From NCBI GenBank assembly GCA_023266095.1, contig JAHFRV010000025.1, positions 1 through 43,503 of the forward strand: a DNA stretch of 43,503 nt, in the 5' to 3' direction. Shown piece by piece: positions 9,442-43,503 of this stretch. The position numbers were made by a program, and so were the translations under genes. Source of the DNA: Gammaproteobacteria bacterium (GTDB lineage Bacteria > Pseudomonadota > Gammaproteobacteria > DRLM01). Every line of letters starts with the position of its first letter. Position 1 is the first letter of the stretch. The notes beneath the pieces were generated by a model that saw nothing but the letters and a program-made list of their open reading frames with translations, did no database searches and was not told the origin of the DNA.

Positions 9442-11646
9442 ATGTCGGCAACGCGTCGCCTATGGAATATCGACACTCTGCTCCGGCCGCTCAGTTTGAG
9501 CCTGCTGGTGGCGGCGCTGGGCGCGCTCGCACTGATTTTACCGCAAGGCCAATATTTGGAAGAAGAGGCGGGACTCGCCCTGTTATTTAAACAACGCGGG
9601 GCCCGTCCCGCGCCCGCCGAAGTGGTGGTGGTGCCGATCGAACATAAGGCCGCCACCGCCTTGGGCATGGCCAACGATCCCGCCCGCTGGCCACGCCGTC
9701 TGCATGCACGGCTGATCGATCAGCTCCATGCCGCCGGCGCCGCCACGGTGAGCTTCGACATCCACTTCAAGGAGGCGCGCGATCCCGCCGATGACGCGGC
9801 CTTGAGCGCGGCCATGCGCCGCGCCGGCAATGTGGTGCTGTTCGCTTACCTCGAACGCGAGGCGGTGCGGCTCCGCGACGACGATCCTCCCATCGCCGGA
9901 CTCGAACGGGTGATTCCGCCCGCGCCCTTGTTCGCCGAGGCCGCCGCGCGCGTGGCGCCTTTCGCCCTGCCCAAGGTACCGGCGCGGGTCAACCGCTTCT
10001 GGACCTTGCAACATTCCGCCGGCGGCATGCCGACCCTGCCGCTGGCGACGCTGGAACAATACAGCTTGCCCGCGCTGCGCGCCGCTCTCGCCCGCGCGGG
10101 GAACGCCGAGGGCGCGGCTTTCATCACGCTGCTCGACGCTGCCAGCACCACGGCGCTGGACCGTTTGCGCACCACGCCGGACCTGCTCGACCGGCTCGGT
10201 GAAACCCTGACCGCCGCCGATGCGCCGCGGCCGCTCGCCGCGCTGCGCGACGCCTATCGCAACGACCCGCAGCCCTTCATCAATTTTTACGGACCGCCGC
10301 GCAGCATCGACACGCTGCGCTACGATGAGATCATCAACGGCGACCCCGCCGCGCTGGCCGCGCGCGTCGCCGGCAAGGCGGTGTTCGTCGGCTTCGCCGA
10401 ACAGCGCCAGCCGCTGCAACGCGACGGGTTTTATACGGTGTTCTCGCAAGAGGACGGCCTGGATTTGAGCGGCGTGGAGATCGCCGCCACCGCCTTCGCC
10501 AATCTGCTCCACCGCGAGGCCTTGCATCCGCCGGCCACCCTCGCCATGTTGTTATTGGTGATAGTCTACGGCGGCTTGGTCACCTTCGTCTGCCGCCGTC
10601 TGCCGGCGCCGGCCGCCATCGCCGCCGGGCTAGCCCTGGCCGGCGCTTATTACACGGTTGCGGCGCAACTGTTCGGCGTCTACAACGTGTGGCTGCCGCT
10701 GGTGATCCCGCTGTTCATCCAAACGCCGCTGGCTTTGTTCCTCGGTCTGTTCGGCCATTACTGGCTGAGCCATCATCAGCGGCGGCAATTGCGCGAGACC
10801 TTCGGTCAGTTCGTGCCCAAACACGTGGTCGATCGGCTACTCGCGCATCGCGACGGGGTGCACGCCCCGAGTGAACATACCTTCGGCATTTGTCTCGCCA
10901 CCGACGCGGCGTGTTACACCGGTTTGGCCGAGACCCTGCAACCCGCGGCCTTGAGCGTGTTGATGAACGACTATTATCAAATCCTCTTCAAGCCGGTGCG
11001 CGAACGACAGGGCATCATCTCCGATGTGGTGGGCGACGCCATGCTGGCGATCTGGCCGTCGCCGCGGCCCGACGCGTCCTTGTGCGCCCAGGCCCTCGCC
11101 GCCGCGCTCGACATCCAGGCGGCGGTCAGTGAATTTTGCCGGCAGGCGGACCGACCGCCGCTACCCACCCGCATCGGCCTGCACTGCGGCGATATGGTGC
11201 TGGGTCAGGTCGGCGCGCTGGATCACTTCGAATACCGCGCGGTGGGCGACATCGTCAACACCGCCAACCGTATTCAATCCCTCAACAAAACCCTCGGCAC
11301 CTCGCTGCTGGTCTCGGCCGAGACGCTGGCCGGCGTGGAGGGTTTCATTACCCGGCCGCTGGGTGCGTTCTTGCTCGCGGGCAAACAACAGAGCGTGGTG
11401 ATCCACGAATTGATCGGCCGCGCCGGCGAAGTCAGTCCCGCTCAACACGCCTTCATCGCACAGTTCGCCGCGGCGCTGCACCATTTCGAACAGGGACAGT
11501 GGGCCGAGGCCCAGGCTGTCTTCATCGCCCTGCACCGCGACTTTCCCGACGACGGCCCCAGCCGCTACTTCGCCGCGCGTTGCGAACAATATCTCGCCTC
11601 GCCGCCCGCCGATTGGCACGGCGTGTTGACCGTGGATCACAAATGA
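9442..11646 (+). CDS. CHASE2-domain class III nucleotide cyclase
   Basis: 734 residues. One membrane helix (about 14-34), then a large periplasmic CHASE2 sensor (about 40-360, with 'FDIHFKEARDPADDAAL' and 'KAVFVGFAE'), three close membrane helices (about 365-440), then a cytoplasmic cyclase domain (about 475-640). Both metal Asp are present (D488 in ATDAACYTGL and D532 in VVGDAMLAIW), as are the transition-state Asn and Arg (N606 and R610 in VNTANRI). The position that is Lys in adenylate cyclases is D528, and the partner Asp/Thr position is R599, judged by eye. The product is therefore not certain. A TPR-like tail follows 660. It is divergent from a CRP-type gene and upstream of a FecR-containing outer-membrane protein. 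Confidence 0.88.
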   Translation: MSATRRLWNIDTLLRPLSLSLLVAALGALALILPQGQYLEEEAGLALLFKQRGARPAPAEVVVVPIEHKAATALGMANDPARWPRRLHARLIDQLHAAGAATVSFDIHFKEARDPADDAALSAAMRRAGNVVLFAYLEREAVRLRDDDPPIAGLERVIPPAPLFAEAAARVAPFALPKVPARVNRFWTLQHSAGGMPTLPLATLEQYSLPALRAALARAGNAEGAAFITLLDAASTTALDRLRTTPDLLDRLGETLTAADAPRPLAALRDAYRNDPQPFINFYGPPRSIDTLRYDEIINGDPAALAARVAGKAVFVGFAEQRQPLQRDGFYTVFSQEDGLDLSGVEIAATAFANLLHREALHPPATLAMLLLVIVYGGLVTFVCRRLPAPAAIAAGLALAGAYYTVAAQLFGVYNVWLPLVIPLFIQTPLALFLGLFGHYWLSHHQRRQLRETFGQFVPKHVVDRLLAHRDGVHAPSEHTFGICLATDAACYTGLAETLQPAALSVLMNDYYQILFKPVRERQGIISDVVGDAMLAIWPSPRPDASLCAQALAAALDIQAAVSEFCRQADRPPLPTRIGLHCGDMVLGQVGALDHFEYRAVGDIVNTANRIQSLNKTLGTSLLVSAETLAGVEGFITRPLGAFLLAGKQQSVVIHELIGRAGEVSPAQHAFIAQFAAALHHFEQGQWAEAQAVFIALHRDFPDDGPSRYFAARCEQYLASPPADWHGVLTVDHK

Positions 11647-11753
11647 GTTGGGCGCCCCTGGGAATATTCACTATACTTGCCAGCAATAGCTCACAGACCA
11701 CCGGCCCGGACGGGCGTATAAAATCAATAAATAATTAGGGAGGATCGATTCCC

Positions 11754-14700
11754 ATGGGACATCGCAGGCTGACTCTTGGCGTTGCCGTCGCGTTGTTGAG
11801 CGGCGCGCCGCTGTCCATCACCCACGCCGACACACCGCGCTGCGCCGCGCCGGTGGCGAACCTCGCCTCCGCCGAAGGCCAAGTCGACATCAGTGAAGGC
11901 GGCGGTGAATCTTGGCGCAGCAGTACGAGCCATCAAATCTTCTGTCCCGATGACCGTATCCGCGTCGGCGCCAACAGCCGCGCCGCGCTGGTATTGAGCA
12001 ATCACACCGTGTTGCGCCTCGGCGCGCACAGCACCATGAATTTCACCGCGCCCAAGGAAGAAGGCAGCCTGTGGGTGGAGCTGGTGCGCGGCGTCGGTTA
12101 TTTCATCAGCCGCGTGCCGCGCCGCCTCAATGTCTCCACCCCTTACGTCAACGCCGGGGTGGAGGGCACCGAGTTTCTGGTCAAGAGCACCGACCAAGAC
12201 GGCACGGTGACTGTGTATGAAGGCCACGTTACCGCATCCAACAGCCAAGGAAACTTACTGCTCACCGGCGGTCAGTCCGCGGTGGCCGGCACGGCCGCCG
12301 CGCCCGATCTGCGCGTGCTGGTGAAACCCCGCGAAGGTTTACAGTGGGCGCTGCATTATCCGGCGGTGGTGCAATTCAACGCCGCCGATTTTGAGGCACA
12401 GGAACCGCTGGCCCGTTCCTTCGCTCAGGTCAAAGAAGGCGATCTCAGCGGCGCCTTGGCCGCGTTGGAAGGGGTCGGCGCCGACAGTAATGACAGCCGT
12501 TTCTTCGCCTATCGCGCCTCCCTGCATCTCGGCGTCGGCCGCGTGCAAGAGGCCGACGCCGACCTCACGCGCGCGCTGACTCTCGCCCCCGGCAACGGCG
12601 ATGCCCTCGCCCTGCAGGCCATCGTCGCCCTCACTCAAAATGAAAAAGACCGCGGCTTGGACTTGGCGACGCGCGCGGTCGACGCCGTGCCCACCGCCTC
12701 CGGTCCGCGTCTCGCCTTGTCCTACGCCTGGCAGGCGCGCTTCGAACTGGAACGCGCCCGTGCCGAAGCGGGCAAGGCGGTGGAACTCGACCCGCGCAAC
12801 GCACTGGCCTGGGCGCGACTCGCCGAATTGCAACTGATGTTCGGCGAACGCGACGCGGCCCTCGCCGCCGCCGAAGAGGCGGCGCGCCTCAGCCCGCGTC
12901 TGGCGCGCAGTCAAAGCGTGTTGGGTTACGCGCAGCTCAACGATATGCAGCTCGGCACGGCACGGCGCTCATTTGAAAACGCCGCCGGCCTCGACCCCAG
13001 CGACCCCTTGCCGCAGCTCGGTCTCGGTTTGATCGAGGTGCGCGAAGGCAATGTCGCTATCGGCCGCCGCCACCTGGAATTGGCCGCCGGCCTCGACCCC
13101 GACAATGCCCTGGTGCGCAGTTATCTCGGCAAGGCCTATTACACGGAAAACCGTGACGGGCGCGCCGCCGCGCAATTCGACACCGCCAAACAGCTCGACC
13201 CCGCCGACCCCACGCCGTGGTTTTACGACGCCATACTCAAACAAAGCGAGAACCGCCCCGCTGAAGCCCTGCAGGATCTGCAAACCTCCATCGCGCTCAA
13301 CGACAACCGCGCGGTCTACCGCTCGCGCCTGCTGCTCGACAGCGACGCCGCCGCGCGCAACGCCAGCCTGGCGCGCATCTACGGCGACCTCGGCTTTCAA
13401 CAACTGGCGCTGGTCGAGGCCTGGAAATCCCTGGCCGTCGATCCCGGCAATTATTCCGCGCACCGCTTTTTAGCGGACTCCTACACCGCGCTGCCGCGTC
13501 ATGAAGCAGCGCGCGTCAGCGAAGTCTTGCAGGCGCAACTCTGGCAACCCGGCACCGCCCGCCCCGTCAACCCCAGCGCGGCCGAAACCAGCCTGTTCGT
13601 CTTGGAAAGCTCAGGCCCGACCCGCTCCGCCTACAACGAATTCACCCCGCTCTTCGCCCAAGACCGCGCGGGCGTGCAGGCCACGCTCAGCGGCGGCAAC
13701 AACGCCACCTGGAGCGACGAGGCCGTGCTCTTCGGCAACTACCGCAATCTATCCGCCAGCCTCGGCCAACTGCACTACACCACCGACGGCTACCGCGACA
13801 ACAACGACTTCGACCAAAACATCTACAACGCCTTCCTGCAATATGACCTCAGCGCAGCCACCAGCGCGCAAATCGAATGGCGCCGCCGCGACATCGAAGG
13901 CGGCGACGTCGCCCAACGTTTCGGCGAGACCAATTTCGATCCCTTCCTAAGGCAGAATTTCGATCAGGAATCCGCACGGGTGGGATTCCGGCATGGCTTC
14001 ACGCCGCGGCGTACGCTGTTGGGTTCGGTGATTTATAACCGGAAAGAGCGACATGACATTTCTTTTCCTACCGATTTCACAGCGTTGACGGAAGGCTATA
14101 ACGCCGAGCTGCAAGGCATGATGCAATTAGCCTCTAGCGACTTGACCGTGGGCGCTGGTCATGCCGAACAACGTGAGCGCACCCTGTTAACTCTTGACTT
14201 TTTCGGACTACCCTTCCCCCTTGAGGACAGCAACGGCGATCGGAGTGATAACAATCTTTACTTCTACGATACCTTTACACCTCAGAAGGAAATACACCTG
14301 ACCTTGGGCCTAAGTTATGACAAAGTGGAGATTGACACACTCGATCAGACCACCGGCCTTCCATCACCTTCACGAGAACGCCAGCAATTCAATCCAAAAT
14401 TCGGTTTGTTATGGACCCCGACCCAGCAAACCACCGTGCGCCTCGCCGCCTTCCGCACTCTGCGCCGCTTGACCCACGCCAATCAAAGTATCGAACCTAG
14501 CCAGATAGCCGGCTTCAATCAGTTCTTCGATGACATCATCGGCACCAAGGCCAAGCGTTATGGCCTCGGTCTCGATCATCAGTTTTCGTCCACAGTATTC
14601 GCCGGCATCGAACTCTCAACCCGTGACAGCAGCGAACAAAGACTATTCTCTACCTTTGGCCCGAGCGGCAGCCTTACAGCCATCACGGATATAAATCACA

Positions 14701-35417: not shown

Positions 35418-36041
35418 ATGCAAAAGCAGGATCACCCTCACCCTCACCGTAAGCACCCCATCCGGTGGTGGCCCAGGAGCAAGGAAAACGGGCGAGCTCC
35501 GGCCCCAGCGACCGCAAAGACGCTCGCGGAGCGCGAGACCGCGGTCCTTGCCGCCGAGCAGGCCTCCGACCTGCGAGATACCGCCCTGCGCGTCCAGGAA
35601 GAGGTCGCCAACGCCCAGACCGAGCATAGCGCGCGTATCGAGACGCAGTTGCGGGAAGCGAACGAACGTCTCATTGTCGCGACGGTTCACGCCCAGGCGA
35701 TGGCCGAGGCCGCCGAGCAAACCGCCGCGCAGCTGTCCCATATGGCCAAACACGACTTTCTCACCGGCTTGCCCAACCGTGCTCTGCTGACTGACCGCTT
35801 GGCGCCGTCGATCGCGCTCGCGCAATGTCATGGCAAGCGAGTCGCCCCGATGTATCTGGACCTTGACCGCTTCAAGCATGTCAACGATTCGCTCGGGCAT
35901 GCGATCGGCGACCAGCTGCTGCAGTCGGTCGCGAAGCGCCTGCAAGGCTGCGTGCGCCGCTCGGATAACCAACCGCAACTGGGGCGTGTCGATGAAATAT
36001 CAGCTCTTCAGACTCAGCCAATACTTACGTGGCTGGATTAA
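35418..36041 (+). pseudogene. GGDEF-domain (diguanylate cyclase) gene, 3'-truncated
   Basis: The start ATG at 35,418 has AAGGA seven bases upstream and lies 11 bases after the KaiC-like stop. A long coiled coil at about 35-105 ('AERETAVLAAEQASDLRDTA') is followed by the first part of a GGDEF domain: 'HDFLTGLPNRALLTDRL', 'YLDLDRFKHVNDSLGHAIGD' and 'LQGCVRRSD'. The homology ends just before the GGDEF signature. From about 35,965 the DNA belongs to a group II intron, so the frame runs on to a chance stop at 36,041. The active site is lost. Confidence 0.85.
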
Positions 36042-36336
36042 TTACTTTGGTATTGCCAGCGGCTATCAACGCTGTGTCGATCTGGACCACTGGATTTGGC
36101 GCAGAGTGAGAATGGCCTATTGGCGACAGTGGCGACGGCCACGCACCAAGGTAAGAAACATGATGAGACTCGGTGTTCATGTTCACGCCGCTATCGCCTG
36201 TGGCATTACCAGCAAAGGCCCATGGCGTAGTGCAAAGACACCCGGGATACAGCAGGCGTTATCAAACGCCTATTTAAAATCCCAGGGGCTTTATGCGTTA
36301 CGTGATGGATGGATTGCGCTTCACCATGCTAACTGA
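35965..36336 (+). pseudogene. C-terminal fragment of group II intron reverse transcriptase/maturase (LtrA-like)
   Basis: About 123 residues: 'TNRNWGVSMKYQLFRLSQYL', 'RGWINYFGIASGYQRCVDLD', 'WRRPRTKVRNMMRLGVH' and 'KTPGIQQALSNAYLKSQG', the maturase (X) and DNA-binding end of intron-encoded proteins. The catalytic reverse transcriptase domain is absent, so it cannot move on its own. Confidence 0.88.
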
Positions 36337-36405
36337 AACGCCCTGTGCGGAGCCGCATGCAGGGTGTTGTGGGGACTGGGGGTTAGAGACCCCCGGTTAC
36401 CCGAT
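35965..36405 (+). mobile_element. 3' end of a group II intron
   Basis: After the maturase C-terminus (stop 36,336), the RNA-like end 'CGCCCTGTGCGGAGCCGCAT' with 'GCAGGGTG' matches domain V, and 'GGGGACTGGGGGTTAGAGAC' with 'CCCCGGTTACCCGAT' matches domain VI and the 3' boundary of bacterial class C-like introns. The first about 80% of the intron, including the 5' splice site and most of the ORF, is missing. The 3' flank starts TTAGCC, the right-core sequence of an attC site. Confidence 0.82.
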
Positions 36406-37294
36406 TAGCCGCAGTTCCAGGCGCAGGCATGGATCTTCGACCAATAATCACGCAAATGAGCACGACGATTGCGACGATCACCTGAGACGGATAGATAACC
36501 TCATTCAGAATAATCACCGCTCCTATAAGCGTGAGAAACGGTTGAAGCAATTGAAGTTGGCCAACGTGCGCGATTCCTCCCATAGCGAGTCCTTTGTACC
36601 AAGCGAAAAATGCCAGGTACATGCTCACGATACTGACATAGGCAAACCCGAAAAGGCTCATCCAGCCCACGGCAGAAATGCTCTTGGGCGCTGTCATAAG
36701 AACAGGGAGAAGTAACACCGGCACGGAAAGCAGCAGTGCCCAACTGATTGTTTGCCAGGCGCCGAGTTCTCTTGATAAGCGAGCGCCTTCAGCGTAGCCG
36801 AATCCCGCTGCGACAACAGCGCCCAAGAGCAGAAAATCTGCGGTTTGAAACAAACCCCCACCGGAAGAGAATGAAAATGCGGCAATCGCAGCACTACCTA
36901 TAAACGTTGACATCCAAAAAAGGGGGCTCGGACGTTCACTGGCGAGCCAAACTCCAAACAAGGCGGTCGAGAGAGGAAGAAGCCCCACGATGACTGCTCC
37001 ATGCGCAGCCGGAACATTTTTCATTGCCCAGGTAGATAACAGCGGGAATCCAACAACAACACCCAGAGCCGTAGCGCCCAACCTGAGCCATTGCCGCCCA
37101 ACTGGTTTTGGCGCCTTCGCGACCCAAAGGGTGATGGCGGCCAGCCCCGCAGCGACAATTGCTCGTCCCAGCCCCACAAAGGTCGGATCGAGGTCAACAA
37201 CAGCCAGTCGGGTCGCAGGCAGGGTGAGGCTAAAACCCAATACGCCAAGCATTCCAAAGGCCAGACTCTGCAATTTAGTGGAGCGAATATTCAT
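36383..37294 (-). CDS. EamA/DMT-family transporter (integron cassette gene)
   Basis: 303 residues with ten membrane helices in two five-helix halves, for example 'LAFGMLGVLGFSLTLPATRL' at the start, 'VPAAHGAVIVGLLPLSTALF' in the first half and 'GGIAHVGQLQLLQPFLTLIG' in the second, typical EamA features. DMT carriers export metabolites or drugs at the inner membrane. The substrate is unknown. No clear ribosome binding site precedes the ATG, as is common in cassettes. The last six codons (RVTGGL and stop) come from the group II intron: the frame runs out of the cassette at GGCTAA and into intron DNA, so the natural C-terminus is altered only slightly. Confidence 0.85.
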   Translation of the reverse strand: MNIRSTKLQSLAFGMLGVLGFSLTLPATRLAVVDLDPTFVGLGRAIVAAGLAAITLWVAKAPKPVGRQWLRLGATALGVVVGFPLLSTWAMKNVPAAHGAVIVGLLPLSTALFGVWLASERPSPLFWMSTFIGSAAIAAFSFSSGGGLFQTADFLLLGAVVAAGFGYAEGARLSRELGAWQTISWALLLSVPVLLLPVLMTAPKSISAVGWMSLFGFAYVSIVSMYLAFFAWYKGLAMGGIAHVGQLQLLQPFLTLIGAVIILNEVIYPSQVIVAIVVLICVIIGRRSMPAPGTAANRVTGGL

Positions 37295-37303
37295 AATGTA
37301 AGT

Positions 37304-37364
37304 GGCTAACGGCCAAGCTCAGCGGCGCGACGACAGGAGCGTACGCTGGAGCGCCGGGTTAGCC
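37304..37364 (-). other. integron attC site 1
   Basis: The plus strand begins GGCTAAC and ends GTTAGCC, perfect RYYYAAC/GTTRRRY cores 61 bases apart, with inner arms CAGCG/CGCTG and the common 'GGAGCGCCGG' near the right core. It lies between the GNAT cassette and the DMT cassette, in minus orientation like the genes. Confidence 0.88.
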
Positions 37365-37873
37365 ATTTTCACCAAGGTTTTAACTTGAAGACCAGCGACC
37401 AATGGCTGTCCCACCCCTGCGGACACCGGATAACTCTCAACATGCCCAGTGCGCACGTAACCTCGACGCTCGTAAAACGAGATCAGTTCTGGCCTGGAAG
37501 ACAAGACGGATATCTTGAAAGTGGTGGCCTTGAAATGTTTGATTGCGTATTGCTCGGCGCACGCGAGCATGTTCTTGCCTAAGCCGCGAGACTGACACCG
37601 AGGCTCAGTGGCAAGCATTCCAATGTAAGCGCTAGATTCACTGCGCTGAATATGGACGCACGCAACGATAATGGCATCCTGACACAGCACCAAAATAAAC
37701 GATTGTGGACCAAAGAGCGATAGGACTTGCTCTGGTGATGTTCTTTCGCCCGAAACCAAATCGGCTTCGTGTGTCCAACCTCGCTGATGCAATGACGGCC
37801 GGTAAGCTTTATTGACTAGAGCCGCAATTTCGCTTGCATCCAGCTCTGATGCAATACACAGGATGGGTTGCAT
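37319..37873 (-). CDS. GNAT-family N-acetyltransferase (integron cassette gene)
   Basis: 184 residues. Acetyl-CoA binding motif A is 'GMLATEPRCQSRGLGKNML' with Q-x-x-G-x-G, followed by 'FKISVLSSRPELISFYERRG' as in GNAT motif B. The ATG has GGAGAG nine bases upstream. The substrate cannot be predicted; cassette GNATs act on antibiotics, amino acids or proteins. The last 14 codons (ANPALQRTLLSSRR) are encoded by the attC site, a usual sign of an integron cassette whose gene ends inside attC. Confidence 0.88.
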   Translation of the reverse strand: MQPILCIASELDASEIAALVNKAYRPSLHQRGWTHEADLVSGERTSPEQVLSLFGPQSFILVLCQDAIIVACVHIQRSESSAYIGMLATEPRCQSRGLGKNMLACAEQYAIKHFKATTFKISVLSSRPELISFYERRGYVRTGHVESYPVSAGVGQPLVAGLQVKTLVKMANPALQRTLLSSRR

Positions 37874-37909
37874 TCCTCTGATCTCTCCGATGAAGACGGC
37901 TAACGACGG

Positions 37910-39679
37910 TGTAGAAAAACCCGATTCTTACTTTCCTTAGTCACCAAGGAGAGTGATTTTTCGAATTTCCACGTTGCACAGATCCATTTTTTGTCCATAG
38001 GGTCGTTCACTCCAAATATATTTACTGTTCCGTTAAAGACCTTTGTGATCACGAATAGGTGGATTACGCCCCTCTTTCACTGCACTGCATAACTATGATG
38101 CGCCCGTTTCTCGATGTTGTGGACCATGCAGTAGCGTTTCCACTGGACATCGACCTTGGTTTGGCCTCGTAGCGTAAACCGGGTCAGCCGTTTGTTACCG
38201 CGCAGGTTACCGAACACGGGTTCAACCGTAGCGAATCGGCGGGTGATCATCTCTCGCCCTGTATCGCTGTCGATCTTGAGCTTCATTCTATCGGTGTGGC
38301 TCGGTCCTTCACGCCTTCCTTGAAAGAAGGCGACTTGCCGGGTCCTGGTTTTGTCGGGCTTGCGCAGACACGTGGAACGCTGCTCACAGGGCAGGCAGTC
38401 CTGTTGGGCGCCGCTGAATTTAATGGCGATGTAACCACCTAATAGTGCCGTTGCCGCCATTGCGATAGAGCGGCTTGCCCGCCGGACAGATGCCATGGCT
38501 GTTGTCGTCAGCGATCTTGAAATCGTCCGTGGTATAGCACTTGGTTTTGCTGGAATGTGTTTCGCGCTTGTCCCAGAGCGGATCGGGCTTGGCCTTGTGG
38601 ATCGCTTGATCGGCGTAGCGTTCATCGCGTTTGCGATAACCGTTGTCGGGGATGTAGGCATCGATTTCTTTTTCAGCCCGTGCCTTGAGGTTGGCTTCTG
38701 AGTGGTAACCCGCATCAGCCGCAAGGGGGGTGCTCTCGGTGCGAAAGGAGGGAGTGGCGGTGACAAGGGGAATCAGCCGCGCCTGCTCCGATCCAGTGCC
38801 ATGGGCCTGCGCATCAACGATGATCGGGTGCTTCTCATCCACAGCGGCCACCCCCGTGTATCCCTGGATCACTCCTTTACCCGTGGCCATTTTGGCCGAT
38901 TCGTTGTCGGTGCGGTGGGTGAGTCTGATCGCCCCGCGTGATCCTTTACGATCCGCCTTGTTCCGCGCCAGCCAGCTGCGTACCTGTTGCGCCTCCTGTT
39001 TGAGGCGTTCCCGCTTTTTGGCTTCACGTTGAGCCGTGGCGTCGTCTGTCGGCGCAGTGTCAGCCTGGCGATGCGTGTCGATACTCTTCTGAGCCGCCGC
39101 GTCCATCTTATCTGCCTGACGCTGAAAATCCTTACGCGTCCCCGACCTGGCCTTACTGGCATTGGCGGGAAGTTTGACACCATCAATTGCAAACATCTCG
39201 CGCCCAATCAATCCTTGGCGATCACAGATCAACTAGACCTGAGCAAACAGCTTCGCCACGCCATCACCGAGCTCCGAGACAAAGGCTGCAAGCGTCGTGA
39301 AATGAGGTTGACTGTCGCCCGAGACGGCGATGAAGAGAATGTTCTCGCGACAGGCCGCCTCGATCTTGCGACTGCCGATGATGCCCCGGCTATAGGCCAG
39401 CAGGATGATTTTGATCAGCGCACCAGGATGATAAGCAGAGGCACCGTTGTCGTCGTTCTTGTAGCGGATATGAAAGGAAGAGAGATCAAGCTCGTGATCT
39501 ACGAGATGACAGAGCGCATGTTCAAAACGACCGGGAATCACCTGCCGGTCAAAATCCACCGCCAGAAGTTTCAGTCCCTCGTGGATTGGTTTATACCGCG
39601 CCATGCCGCCCCCTCAGCGTTCCGTTTCAGTAAGCCGATTATGCCAAAAACGTTGGCGGGTTTTTTGGGTTTTTCTACA
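37910..39679 (-). mobile_element. IS1182-type insertion sequence, decayed
   Basis: 1,770 bp bounded by perfect 13-bp inverted repeats TGTAGAAAAACCC (37,910-37,922) and GGGTTTTTCTACA (39,667-39,679). It carries one transposase reading frame broken at two sites. No target duplication is evident (left flank CGACGG, right flank GCCTCA). It is inserted in the integron cassette array, immediately beside the left core of attC site 2 and just upstream of the GNAT cassette start GTTAGCC. Confidence 0.88.
38077..39604 (-). pseudogene. IS1182-type transposase, interrupted by a stop and a frameshift
   Basis: The N-terminal part starts at 39,604 (MARYKPIHEGLKLLAVDFDR) and includes 'GIIGSRKIEAACRENILFIA'. 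An in-frame TAG at 39,233-39,235 interrupts 'KLFAQV-stop-LICDRQGLIGREMFAIDG'. The frame then runs through 'GYTGVAAVDEKHPIIVDAQA' and 'PLAADAGYHSEANL' (DDE core). Near 38,445 a one-base shift takes it into 'GGYIAIKFSGAQQDCLPCEQ', and it ends with 'RFATVEPVFGNLRGNKRL' at stop 38,077. Two lesions mean no full product. An older fragment of a related transposase lies at 34,423-34,735. Confidence 0.88.
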
Positions 39680-39680
39680 G

Positions 39681-39768
39681 CCTCAACGTCAAAACTAAGG
39701 GGCGCGCGCCCCGATGTAACTATGAAGAACTACCATCAACGCGCGTCCCCTTGAGTGCCGGGTTGGGG
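39681..39768 (-). other. integron attC site 2 (degenerate cores)
   Basis: The plus strand begins CCTCAAC and ends GTTGGGG, with the outermost bases still complementary. The arms AAGGGGCGCGCG and CGCGCGTCCCCTT form a stem, and 'GTGCCGGGTTGGGG' resembles the right ends of the other sites. 88 bases. It follows the two-gene cassette at 39,814-40,811; the IS element ends one base before it. Confidence 0.7.
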
Positions 39769-39813
39769 TACGGATTTTCTAGACCTGCCCCCGGCTCTCT
39801 TTGTTCAGGCTTT

Positions 39814-40332
39814 TTACTTGGTTCCTTGTTTATTCTGTTTTTCAACGGATTTTTCTGGAGCATTTTTTTCATCTTTACCAGGAGAATATTTCCAAAAATC
39901 AGATGGGATAAATGCATTGCAATATTGCAGTATAGGCTCGCCATTTTTATCCAGCTTCATATAGGGACTAGGATCAATTGGAACTGTTAAACTTTCTTTT
40001 TCTCCCTTGGCAACAGTACGAAACTCTTGTAAAAGTTGCCAATGGTATTCCAATAACTTTTGCCTGTTTTTTGCCTTGGAGAGAATTCCGTACATTCGAA
40101 GTTTAATATTCTGTCGGCAATTAGGCGCTCGAAACACAAAGCGTTCCTTAGGGATCAGGATTTCAAATTGTCCATAGCTGGACATAAACTCTTCATATGT
40201 ACTGCCGTTAAATTCGTCAATAGAAGCAATGTCATCCTTAGATATGACCATATTTCTTTGGATTGAAGATTTATCACTGGCATAAGATGATAATGAAATA
40301 AGAAATAAGAATAATAGAGATAGAGTTTTCAT
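39814..40332 (-). CDS. secreted protein of unknown function (second gene of a two-gene cassette)
   Basis: 172 residues from ATG 40,332. The signal peptide 'TLSLLFLFLISLSSYA' is followed by a charged mature part with two Cys (in 'APNCRQNIKL' and 'LQYCNAF') and a Lys/Glu-rich tail. No known family is recognised. Its ATG overlaps the stop of the upstream gene (ATGA) and uses the GGAGGAGA inside that gene as ribosome binding site, so the two are coupled. A periplasmic partner or inhibitor of the upstream product is possible but unproven. Confidence 0.7.
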   Translation of the reverse strand: MKTLSLLFLFLISLSSYASDKSSIQRNMVISKDDIASIDEFNGSTYEEFMSSYGQFEILIPKERFVFRAPNCRQNIKLRMYGILSKAKNRQKLLEYHWQLLQEFRTVAKGEKESLTVPIDPSPYMKLDKNGEPILQYCNAFIPSDFWKYSPGKDEKNAPEKSVEKQNKQGTK

Positions 40333-40811
40333 TTCTCCTCCATTACGTGGTTCCACTTTTCTACGTATTTTTTATCATCACCCTTACCCCCGATTGTGTT
40401 ATAAAAATCTTTCCAATATTTAGACATTCCGACAACATCTCCCGCATCTGGAAGCGGATCGCTCACTCGCCGATAATATAACCTCGCCATAGCGCATCCA
40501 TACTTATCGTTTTTCTCAAGCTCAGTTATTTTGTCTGCCTTCGCTGGCAACAGTAATTCAACCGAATGCCGATAGATTGCGTGATGCTTCAGAAAGTTTT
40601 CCCAGATATCGTTATGGGTGGCAACTTCCATTTGCCACAGACTCCTGGCTGGGCCATGAGGACGTTGCCGCCGCCACGTAAGGTCGCTCTCCATAATCGC
40701 TGTACCAAGTAACAATTCTTCTGCTGCGGGCGACCATAGATGAATTGCCTTCAGCGTTGGCCGGATAACATTTTCCAGAAGTGCCATTGCATCTTTTTTT
40801 GTTGCTGCCAT
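40329..40811 (-). CDS. phage-like conserved protein, possibly lysozyme-related (cassette gene)
   Basis: 160 residues. The N-terminal half, 'VIRPTLKAIHLWSPAAEELL' then 'LGTAIMESDLTW' and 'SLWQMEVATHNDIWENFLKH', resembles a small protein family seen in phages and prophages whose 'ES..L' and 'WQME' pattern recalls soluble lytic transglycosylases and goose-type lysozymes, with E39 a candidate catalytic Glu in 'IMESDL'. No signal peptide. It is translationally coupled to a secreted protein gene. I judge the lysozyme link tentative. Ribosome binding site AGGAAGGA lies about 12 bases upstream. Confidence 0.65.
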   Translation of the reverse strand: MAATKKDAMALLENVIRPTLKAIHLWSPAAEELLLGTAIMESDLTWRRQRPHGPARSLWQMEVATHNDIWENFLKHHAIYRHSVELLLPAKADKITELEKNDKYGCAMARLYYRRVSDPLPDAGDVVGMSKYWKDFYNTIGGKGDDKKYVEKWNHVMEEK

Positions 40812-40973
40812 ATTTTCGTATATCCTTCCTTGAAAAAAACTAGATGAGTGTTCTTGGTTATATCAAACGTAAGCCCCGATGTTTAACATTGCGGCCGCAT
40901 ACATTTGCACAGCGTGAAAGCGAAAGCCCCAAACATAAAGCAGAGATTGCCAAGCGAAGCCTTCTCATTTACA

Positions 40974-41040
40974 CCCTAACGTGAAAGCTCAGCCGACCGC
41001 GCGGTTTTTTGCGCGGGTCGGCTGGAGCGCCGGGTTGGGT
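40974..41040 (-). other. integron attC site 3
   Basis: The plus strand begins CCCTAAC and ends GTTGGGT, 67 bases, with long arms AGCCGACC(GCGC)/(GCGC)GGGTCGGCT and 'GGAGCGCCGG' before the right core as in site 1. It follows the periplasmic protein cassette at 41,051. Confidence 0.88.
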
Positions 41041-41050
41041 CATTGCTTGT

Positions 41051-41533
41051 TCATTCCGGCTTTGCGTCCGCACCATGTTCTGACAGCTGAGCCCCAAACC
41101 ATCTATGTATGGCAGTGAGCAGGTGGATGTCAGAGGTCTTGAAGGCGATCTCCGCACCGGCGGGAAGAGCAGCATACGAAACTCCGATACGTGAAGCCCC
41201 TTCCCGAAGCTCATTAAGACCAGGCATATCTTCTCCATGAAGCTTCGCTGGATCCGCGTAATTTCCTTTCTGAAAGCTCTCCGCCTCATGTTGCAGATGT
41301 TGTTGAATGAGCGCTATCTGGTCGAACGCACCCCCATCCTTTGCAATAACTCGCTCGACTCCTCCTTGTTCTGTCATTCTGAAGATATGCACCGTCTTTG
41401 CCGTATCGAATGGCATCACGCCGTGCGACATTTGATGCACGTGTTCTTGCCGTGTCGTCTGCGCCCATAAAGGTGCGCTGGCAAGAACGACAAACGTAGC
41501 TGCAAATCGAATTGTGCGTAGTCGTTTAGTCAT
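41051..41533 (-). CDS. conserved periplasmic protein (cassette gene)
   Basis: 160 residues with signal peptide ('FAATFVVLASAPLWAQ'). The mature part has 'MSHGVMPFDTAKTVHIFRMT', 'HLQHEAESFQKGNYADPAKL' and 'DIHLLTAIHRWFGAQLSEHG', a small conserved family that some databases name as carbamoyltransferase-related without basis visible here. The many His (HVHQMSH near the mature start) could bind metal. GGAGG five bases before the ATG supports the start. It is followed by attC site 3. Confidence 0.75.
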   Translation of the reverse strand: MTKRLRTIRFAATFVVLASAPLWAQTTRQEHVHQMSHGVMPFDTAKTVHIFRMTEQGGVERVIAKDGGAFDQIALIQQHLQHEAESFQKGNYADPAKLHGEDMPGLNELREGASRIGVSYAALPAGAEIAFKTSDIHLLTAIHRWFGAQLSEHGADAKPE

Positions 41534-41569
41534 ATTTCCCTCCAGGTGGCCACCTTAACCCTGACGGAG

Positions 41570-41639
41570 GCCCAACGCCAGAGTTCAGCCGACGCTTGGA
41601 GCGCAGCGGAAAGCGGTCGGCTGGAACGAAAAGTTAGAC
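41570..41639 (-). other. integron attC site 4
   Basis: The plus strand begins GCCCAAC and ends GTTAGAC, both perfect core consensus, 70 bases, with arms CAGCCGAC-GCTT/AAGC-GGTCGGCTG. Confidence 0.9.
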
Positions 41640-41909
41640 AGAGACGTTTGTGCATGCTACCGCCCTCAGGGTTCCCTGCGTTTGATGTTGGGTTTTCACA
41701 TTAACGCTCCTTTAAACCTTCTCTATTTCTTGGTAGCTTCAGTATCCCGACCCCGGCTTGCCCCACGCATTGCCAGCCTACAGCGAAGTGCGCGTGACGC
41801 GCCACGACGCATGAACAACGCCCGCGTGGGGCAAACGGATAAACCGTTGGCTATTGCGCTGAGGTTGAGGATTGCATTTGTGCTTAACTGCATTGTTCTT
41901 TTCACTTGG
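41640..41909. other. integron cassette without a clear gene
   Basis: 270 bases between attC sites 4 and 5. Short frames exist on both strands (plus 41,682-41,915, 77 codons; minus 41,723-41,905, 60 codons). Neither has a good ribosome binding site, and both are Arg/Ala-rich. The plus frame has a hydrophobic start ('INAPLNLLYFLVASVS') and ends inside attC site 5. It may encode a small membrane peptide or an RNA, or be a non-coding cassette. Confidence 0.6.
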
Positions 41910-41979
41910 GGCTAACGATTGAGGTCACCGGCGTTGCGCGGCTTTATCGCGCAGCGTCCGGTGGACCGATTGGTTGGGC
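41910..41979 (-). other. integron attC site 5
   Basis: The plus strand begins GGCTAAC and ends GTTGGGC, both perfect core consensus, 70 bases, with arms CACCGG/CCGGTG and TGCGCG/CGCGCA around a short loop. It starts 15 bases after the stop of the reverse transcriptase gene, so that gene is a cassette. Confidence 0.9.
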
Positions 41980-41994
41980 GTAATGGCTGCCATC

Positions 41995-43392
41995 TCAGAA
42001 TTTCTTGGCGCAGCCAGCAATCAGGTAGTTGAGCGGCGAGCCTTTCGAAAAGTAGTCGAGCACGTAGTTTCGCTCAGCTGCCTTAAGAGATCTGGTACCC
42101 ATCGCAGATGACCATGACAGCCAGTCTGACTGTCCTGTCTTGAGAAACTCGTCTCGAATTTCTTTGAAGCCAAAGCTTTGCTCTGGAATTTCTAGTACCT
42201 TGGCGCGGGCAATCTTGAAGTCCTGTGTAAGCTCAAAGATTCGCATCAGGACATCGCCATAGCATCCGTGGCCGATAAGATGATCCTCCACAATGCACGC
42301 CAGCCAAAAGAGTTGGTATTCCAGGAAGAACGTTTCTTTCGTTAGGTGTTCCAACAATACCGCGGCTAGTTCGGTTTTTTCCGACACCGTGGAACAAACT
42401 GAATGAATATGCTTCGTAAGGTTGGGAAACCTACGCAGAAGCATGTGTAGGTGTTCGAGAATGCTATCGCTGTGGGAACGAAGGAAGCCCAAGATTAAAT
42501 CAGCATCGGCTTCCTCAAGTGAGTCGTCCTTTAAAAGTGCAAGTAAGGCACTAACTTGATCGTCGGTGAGATTTGTAGCTACTTCATTCTCAACAAGCAC
42601 AAAGTCCACACCTGAGGCGCCATGGACTTCATGAATCTCATCCACGATTTCAACAAGAGATTCGTGTAAGGCAGAAAGTGTTTCTTCGACATTGCCAATG
42701 CTCTTGTTATAGAAGGTCTTGCTAGGATTAACGTTTAGACCAAATTGCCCCAGCAGTTGTTGTATCCGCAAGAAGTCTTGTCTTAGAACATCAGGATCGT
42801 CATCAAATAGGGTGAAGTCGTCCATGAATCTGACCAGAAGTGATGACTTCAATTGTGCCGACAGATCAACGACCTTGAGAAACTCGTTTCCTATCATCTT
42901 GCTCGGGTAGATGCCATGAGGGAGAAAATCAACACTCCTACCCGCGTTGATCTCCCTGAAAAACTTACCCAGAGCGTTGCTATCGATTTCGGACACACCC
43001 TGCCTAGCGGCAAACCAGTGTGTTATGTCGTGGTGATACAGGCAGTTGAAATACGCGGCTATATCGAACTGCAAGTTATGTTTGAATTTCGCGTTGCTAT
43101 CGGTCAAACAAAGCTTGTACGCTTTGTAAGCGTTATGCACTGATATATGGCCGCCTGCCATAAACCGATAGCCAAAGCTTCGTCGCGTGTTGCTTACCTC
43201 AGGCCGAAAGATCGCTCTATTTCGATAGGTCACGTCGTAGAGAAAGTACTCCGCAACAGGGTCCAGCTTTACGGTGCGTCTTAAATGGCCACGTGGTTTA
43301 GTTGCATGAACACGCTGTTGCGCCAGGAAGTTGTCCGCTGTCTGCTTGTCATCGAGTATCTTTTGATAAATGTACTCGGAGACGAATGGCAC
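41995..43392 (-). CDS. stand-alone reverse transcriptase, Abi/defence-like (cassette gene)
   Basis: 465 residues. The start is GTG at 43,392, forced by an in-frame TAA immediately before it; no strong ribosome binding site. Polymerase motifs: 'FDIAAYFNCLYHHDI' (D110, motif A), 'LPHGIYPSKMIGNEFL' (157-172, motif B), FMDD in 'LLVRFMDDFTLF' (189-192, motif C) and 'LNVNPSKTFY' (K225, motif D). Residues about 235-465 are helical with no match I recognise; long helical C-terminal regions occur in AbiA, AbiK and related antiphage reverse transcriptases. There is no maturase or intron RNA, so it is not a group II intron protein. Base composition is lower in GC than the chromosome. It is followed by attC site 5. 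Confidence 0.85.
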   Translation of the reverse strand: MPFVSEYIYQKILDDKQTADNFLAQQRVHATKPRGHLRRTVKLDPVAEYFLYDVTYRNRAIFRPEVSNTRRSFGYRFMAGGHISVHNAYKAYKLCLTDSNAKFKHNLQFDIAAYFNCLYHHDITHWFAARQGVSEIDSNALGKFFREINAGRSVDFLPHGIYPSKMIGNEFLKVVDLSAQLKSSLLVRFMDDFTLFDDDPDVLRQDFLRIQQLLGQFGLNVNPSKTFYNKSIGNVEETLSALHESLVEIVDEIHEVHGASGVDFVLVENEVATNLTDDQVSALLALLKDDSLEEADADLILGFLRSHSDSILEHLHMLLRRFPNLTKHIHSVCSTVSEKTELAAVLLEHLTKETFFLEYQLFWLACIVEDHLIGHGCYGDVLMRIFELTQDFKIARAKVLEIPEQSFGFKEIRDEFLKTGQSDWLSWSSAMGTRSLKAAERNYVLDYFSKGSPLNYLIAGCAKKF

Positions 43393-43430
43393 TTACTTAA
43401 GCGCAAGGGGTTGAATTACAAGTTAGAAGA

Positions 43431-43490
43431 GACCGGAACCATGGTAGGCTGCAAATCGCCAAACCCACACCCTACCAACAGGAACCGGTC
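43431..43490. repeat. inverted repeat upstream of the reverse transcriptase gene
   Basis: Outer arms GACCGG (43,431-43,436) and CCGGTC (43,485-43,490), inner arms GGTAGG (43,443-43,448) and CCTACC (43,471-43,476), with a 22-base loop. An ATG at 43,494 on the plus strand (MQI...) with AGGA nearby could be the start of a rightward gene cut by the window edge. This may be the end of an insertion sequence or a structured leader; the window is too short to decide. Confidence 0.5.
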
Positions 43491-43503
43491 TTCATGCAGA
43501 TTA

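Follow-up and report, generated by a model that had tools for sequence, protein, structure and literature searches.

A reverse transcriptase (RT) gene of the Drt5 (UG16) family was very probably captured as the first cassette of an integron and then interrupted by an insertion sequence (IS), its intact form fairly probably being a single-gene defence system that would work without an RNA of its own. The window (the whole stretch of DNA analysed, 43,503 nucleotides; contig C38 of genome G000) contains the 3′ part of this gene close to its end at position 43503, while the 5′ part lies on a second contig, C50. Drt5 is already known, and integrons are already known as carriers of defence systems: to go by their citation in PMC12444791, the integron-borne phage defence cassettes of Kieffer 2025, Darracq 2025 and Getz 2025 resemble the present case in having defence genes as cassettes. 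A link between Drt5 and integrons was not found in the literature searched, the main integron defence papers lying outside that search; a single paper mentions the two, without connecting them.

An antiviral reverse transcriptase of the Drt5 family

The RT is encoded by an open reading frame (ORF) of 465 aa (41995-43392, minus strand) containing an RT_1 domain and an RFMDD motif. The Pfam search found no maturase domain in it, in agreement with a preliminary description of this DNA. That description had called the RT uncharacterised, a label that has to be dropped: the NCBIfam equivalog for Drt5 (NF041750) matched the protein with 621.6 bits (cut-off 550) over profile positions 27-484 of 484, and the PADLOC profile for Drt5 gave 678 bits. 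These matches identify the window RT as Drt5 (UG16), a known antiviral reverse transcriptase; phage protection has been reported for the family (PMC7699616). The FMDD active site, initially singled out as remarkable, is the rule among Drt5 homologues: in an alignment of 35 sequences M219, D220 and D221 were invariant and F218 nearly so. The window gene thus resembles NF041750 members over the full length of the part present, RFMDD active site included, and in being a single gene, its cassette containing no second protein. It differs from them in lacking its first 36 codons, owing to the IS, and in being an integron cassette, a setting seen in 4 of about 47 loci.

An insertion sequence separates the gene into two parts

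The matches of the window ORF began about 27-33 positions into both Drt5 profiles, so the N-terminus was suspected to be missing. The features at the end of the window are as follows.

41995..43383, minus strand: 3′ part of drt5 (codons 37-494 and stop), matching NF041750 and PADLOC Drt5; its frame joins the N-terminal part on C50
43373..43383, no strand: target site duplication TACTCGGAGAC, copy on the window contig; the same 11 bp lie beside the other IS end on C50
43384..43503, no strand: IS end with terminal repeat GAATGGCACTTACTTAAG; 7 matches in the genome, each beginning at a contig end
43442..43477, no strand: inverted repeat of the preliminary description, within the IS; arms 43442-43451 and 43468-43477, 10 nt

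Window bases 43393-43503 matched seven places in the genome with 100% identity, all of them beginning at contig ends, and alignment of the IS copies set the start of the repeat at GAATGGCACTTACTTAAG, window position 43384. The apparent GTG start codon of the ORF (43390-43392) therefore falls inside the IS. The opposite IS end, GAATGGCGCTTACTTAAG, gave 13 matches in the genome. The genome has at least seven copies of the element, which is seen from its two ends, its interior being absent from the assembly; a search for it in plasmids gave no match. The N-terminus of Drt5, MSATFKFFKADFAGTLFPLKTNLLVAEKHEKEVSE, was located on the minus strand of contig C50 (locus L004, from 226 down to 120), where it is cut by the other IS end and its reading frame then runs into a stop created by the IS junction. 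A comparison of flanks showed that the 11 bp of TACTCGGAGAC are common to the window junction and to the C50 junction; the chance of an 11-bp match across the 84 flank pairs was estimated at about 2e-5, and 11-bp duplications also pair two other IS copies in this genome. Without the IS, and with the duplicated 11 bp counted once, the parts on C38 and C50 give a single frame of 494 aa, the length of the intact homologues. The duplication and the reading frame, on which the join C38-IS-C50 rests, place the insertion after codon 36 of drt5. No second copy of drt5 was found in the genome. The ORF first described is thus a genuine RT ORF, although it is not the whole gene, its first 36 codons being on C50. 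The inverted repeat reported 5′ of it does exist, and the alternative explanation offered for it, that it is just an IS end, proved right.

The insertion leaves the family assignment untouched and matters for whether this copy is functional. Unbroken genes carry an N-terminal FxxxDFxxTLFPLxTN block, which the IS has removed from the window copy and which was found on C50. Judged by a structural model of an intact homologue (L029, see below), two predicted N-terminal helices (residues 4-12 and 20-28) are lost through the insertion and a third is interrupted; the drt5 copy of this genome is therefore probably inactive. It is rather unlikely that translation from the GTG within the IS still yields a truncated protein with some function: the IS end is in frame with drt5 and contains no stop, and the polymerase motifs and the C-terminal domain are intact, but the 36 lost residues carry the family-conserved block and the two predicted helices, and the lost region falls within the stretch that aligns structurally with full-length class 1 polymerases.

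drt5 as the probable first cassette in a chromosomal integron

The remainder of the array on the window contig comprises the following features.

41910..41980, minus strand: attC of the drt5 cassette (cmsearch 55.4 bits, site in the model's training set; hairpin z -3.25)
41570..41640, minus strand: attC (cmsearch 50.6 bits, training set)
41051..41533, minus strand: cassette ORF, 160 aa, no Pfam or NCBIfam match
40976..41043, minus strand: attC (cmsearch 52.5 bits, training set)
40329..40811, minus strand: cassette ORF, 160 aa, no family match
39814..40356, minus strand: cassette ORF, 180 aa, no family match
39680..39769, minus strand: attC outside the training set (cmsearch 25.4 bits, E 2e-5)
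37304..37366, minus strand: attC between the ORFs 37319-37873 and 36383-37294 (cmsearch 56.4 bits, training set), with perfect GGCTAAC/GTTAGCC arms

A hand-written attC scan found no site in the window under strict settings, and with looser ones it matched 177 of 1152 random stretches; because of this number of chance matches a covariance model was adopted. It was built from six sites, and its covariation score and share of paired cells were above those of all 500 shuffles. With this model five attC sites were detected in the window, that of drt5 among them, all on the minus strand with high scores. The drt5 attC begins 13 bases past the drt5 stop. At the three window sites tested, the attC DNA hairpins folded better than shuffled sequences (z -2.2 to -3.5). 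The attC 3′ of the stop, together with four more on the same strand, substantiates the earlier claim that the RT gene is an integron cassette.

On C50, the N-terminal part of drt5 adjoins an integron integrase gene, intI (L004 375-1394, 339 aa, 484.6 bits), and the ORF that follows intI was read as lysA. About 33 bases separate the core site GTTGGAC from the ATG of drt5, the attI core having been read by eye. Since the N-terminus lies beside intI, these sequences put drt5, in its broken state, at the head of the cassettes in a chromosomal integron.

Other mobile elements were seen in the same genome. A transposase-like ORF pair (38077-39604, minus strand), with a DDE_Tnp_1 match just below the cut-off and split by a stop, has inserted among the cassettes. 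Just past the cassette with ORF 36383-37294 there is a domain V of a group II intron (36336-36405, plus strand; 47.2 bits, above the gathering score), and an apparent maturase remnant occupies 35830-36336 (plus strand). A second integron integrase gene (456.9 bits; contig C15 of G000, L005) adjoins a dihydrolipoamide dehydrogenase-like ORF, and a similar one was found in a relative (L081).

Absence of a common RNA element upstream of drt5

The inverted repeat had also been proposed to form a structured RNA working with the enzyme. An Rfam search found no RNA near drt5. When the 300 bp upstream and downstream of the Drt5 loci were compared all against all, similarity was found among close orthologues only (the Roseobacter group, and L064 with L065), with the exception of a 41-base match downstream of the gene in L040 and L043; the upstream alignment of homologues, suggested as a check, thus revealed nothing common beyond close orthologues. 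In a control with Drt2, which does carry an RNA, two loci with 51% protein identity shared a 34-bp match at 85% (E 1.5e-5), in a small set of four plasmid or genome loci with this one matching pair; the viral scan for Drt2 gave none. The drt5 genes located in cassettes have leaders of about 30 bp and 13-16 bases between stop and attC, and leaders this short argue against an RNA carried by the cassette. Elsewhere, a long ORF ends 40 bp or less upstream of the gene in several Drt5 loci, in annotated records drt5 either overlaps the gene before it or follows it at a distance of 21 bp, and in some homologues the upstream gap exceeds 200 bp. A poorly conserved RNA may be present in these longer gaps, or an RNA may lie inside the drt5 coding sequence or be encoded elsewhere.

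It is accordingly very unlikely that the enzyme acts together with a structured RNA from the DNA immediately 5′ of its gene, in the style of retrons, DRT2 or DRT9, with the inverted repeat forming part of this RNA. In favour of such an RNA are the inverted repeat upstream of the apparent start and the RNAs carried by certain related defence RTs (PMC13213688); but the IS end in which the repeat lies recurs at seven places, on C50, where the gene truly begins, core site and ATG are about 33 bases apart, and diverged Drt5 homologues share nothing upstream, whereas one Drt2 pair of 51% identity does. Retrons, DRT2 and DRT9 have the RT domain in common with Drt5 and carry an RNA, while Drt5 loci have no common upstream element and match the fold of those enzymes in the polymerase part only. 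The case serves as a warning that, where a defence gene sits at a contig end, what looks like an RNA element next to it may be the end of an IS.

In genomes and plasmids of the Roseobacter group (L042, L045, L046, L062, L019 and L020), the ORF before drt5 ends within 21 bp of it or overlaps it. In L019 and L020 this ORF is annotated as an ATP-binding protein, a possible partner of drt5.

Predicted fold and mode of action

The fold was modelled on the intact homologue L029, 64% identical to the window protein; the fold was used because the nearest structure by sequence was weak. The L029 model (pLDDT 87.9, pTM 0.88) was compared with known structures using VIA-align. Its nearest matches over the whole chain were DRT6 (Z 20.8, 441 residues), DRT4 (19.2, 439) and UG15 (17.6, 433), followed by AbiA (17.0, 385), Abi-P2 (16.5, 380) and AbiK (15.9, 443). 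DRT9, DRT2, group II, DGR and retron RTs aligned over about 190-250 residues, mainly in the polymerase part. The model has the polymerase and a helical C-terminal domain in one chain, as in class 1 UG/Abi enzymes. It bears out, for this homologue, the helical C-terminal part that had been predicted, the comparison of that part with the helical domains of AbiA and AbiK, and the assignment of the RT to the Abi-type defence enzymes. Drt5 therefore resembles the class 1 single-gene polymerases DRT4, DRT6, AbiK, AbiA and Abi-P2 in its whole-chain fold (Z 15 to 21, 380-443 residues), although these are only 10-17% identical to the Drt5 homologue. That the window RT should be a group II intron RT, or a remnant of one, is vanishingly improbable: group II introns do occur within integrons of this kind and the protein matches a group II maturase profile weakly (NCBIfam; 27.7 bits, cut-off 300), but its Drt5 score is more than 20 times higher and the Drt5 assignment refutes that origin, it has no maturase domain, its C-terminal fold is that of Abi-type enzymes, and the sole group II signal above the gathering score in 36000-43503 is the domain V, some 5.6 kb away.

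DRT4 makes random single-stranded DNA without a template and DRT1 makes protein-primed DNA (PMC13213688, PMC13275509). The literature searched contained no demonstration of template-free, protein-primed synthesis by Drt5 (UG16), and the review PMC13213688 lists the mechanism of DRT5 as not established. The proteins named DRT5S and DRT5L in PMC13275509 were set aside as evidence on mechanism, as that paper places them among the class 3 RTs and they probably do not belong to UG16. Judging from the modelled fold, Drt5 fairly probably acts in the manner of DRT4 and AbiK. The sequence of events that we propose begins with the capture of a drt5 (UG16) gene by a chromosomal integron, in which it would have become the first cassette, beside attI; an IS would then have interrupted it after codon 36. 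An intact Drt5 would, to go by its fold, work alone, like DRT4, DRT6 and AbiK, and make protein-primed DNA without an RNA template; infection might turn this DNA synthesis into an abortive defence.

Distribution of drt5 and its presence in other integrons

A scan for Drt5 gave 43 loci in 84,980 species genomes and two in a viral collection; none was found in phage records. In the class to which this genome belongs, Drt5 was present in two of 369 sampled genomes, namely this one and that with the same locus as L029, and it was absent from all five family relatives; it is therefore rare. One locus, L021, is a 4.1-kb contig labelled Streptomyces, with a Drt5 73% identical to that of the window; the label may reflect contamination. 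In E. coli SCU-124 (L085), a chromosomal drt5 adjoins a mobQ relaxase gene and decayed conjugation genes, and 7 of 5426 complete E. coli genomes gave a match.

Besides the window copy, three drt5 genes appear to lie in cassettes, bringing the total to at least four among about 47 loci. In L029, attC sites flank drt5 on both sides. In L027, an attC ends 22 bases before the drt5 start. In L026, a core site precedes drt5 and an apparent attC, interrupted just after the stop, is followed by a group II intron RT ORF. The attC model misses sites with long loops (upstream in L029) and those broken by introns (L026), and these two were read by eye. In L026 (Thiorhodococcus, 10393-12342) the site after drt5 resembles an attC into which a group II intron has inserted, the RT ORF of the intron being at 11008-12342.

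To account for the cassette label on a maximum-likelihood tree, four changes (gains or losses) are required, and the well-supported branches force all four; the pattern of the four cassette rows is the same as that of randomly scattered labels, and shows only that they do not form one clade. We put at about an even chance that drt5 became an integron cassette several times independently (in the window, L026, L027 and L029); a single gene that needs no RNA would suit a leader of about 30 bases.

The cassette form would represent a natural minimal unit. It argues that the Drt5 protein needs no dedicated RNA for its action, and it offers an easier way to test the mechanism. If the repeated capture of drt5 is real, integrons would be a regular route by which template-free defence RTs spread.
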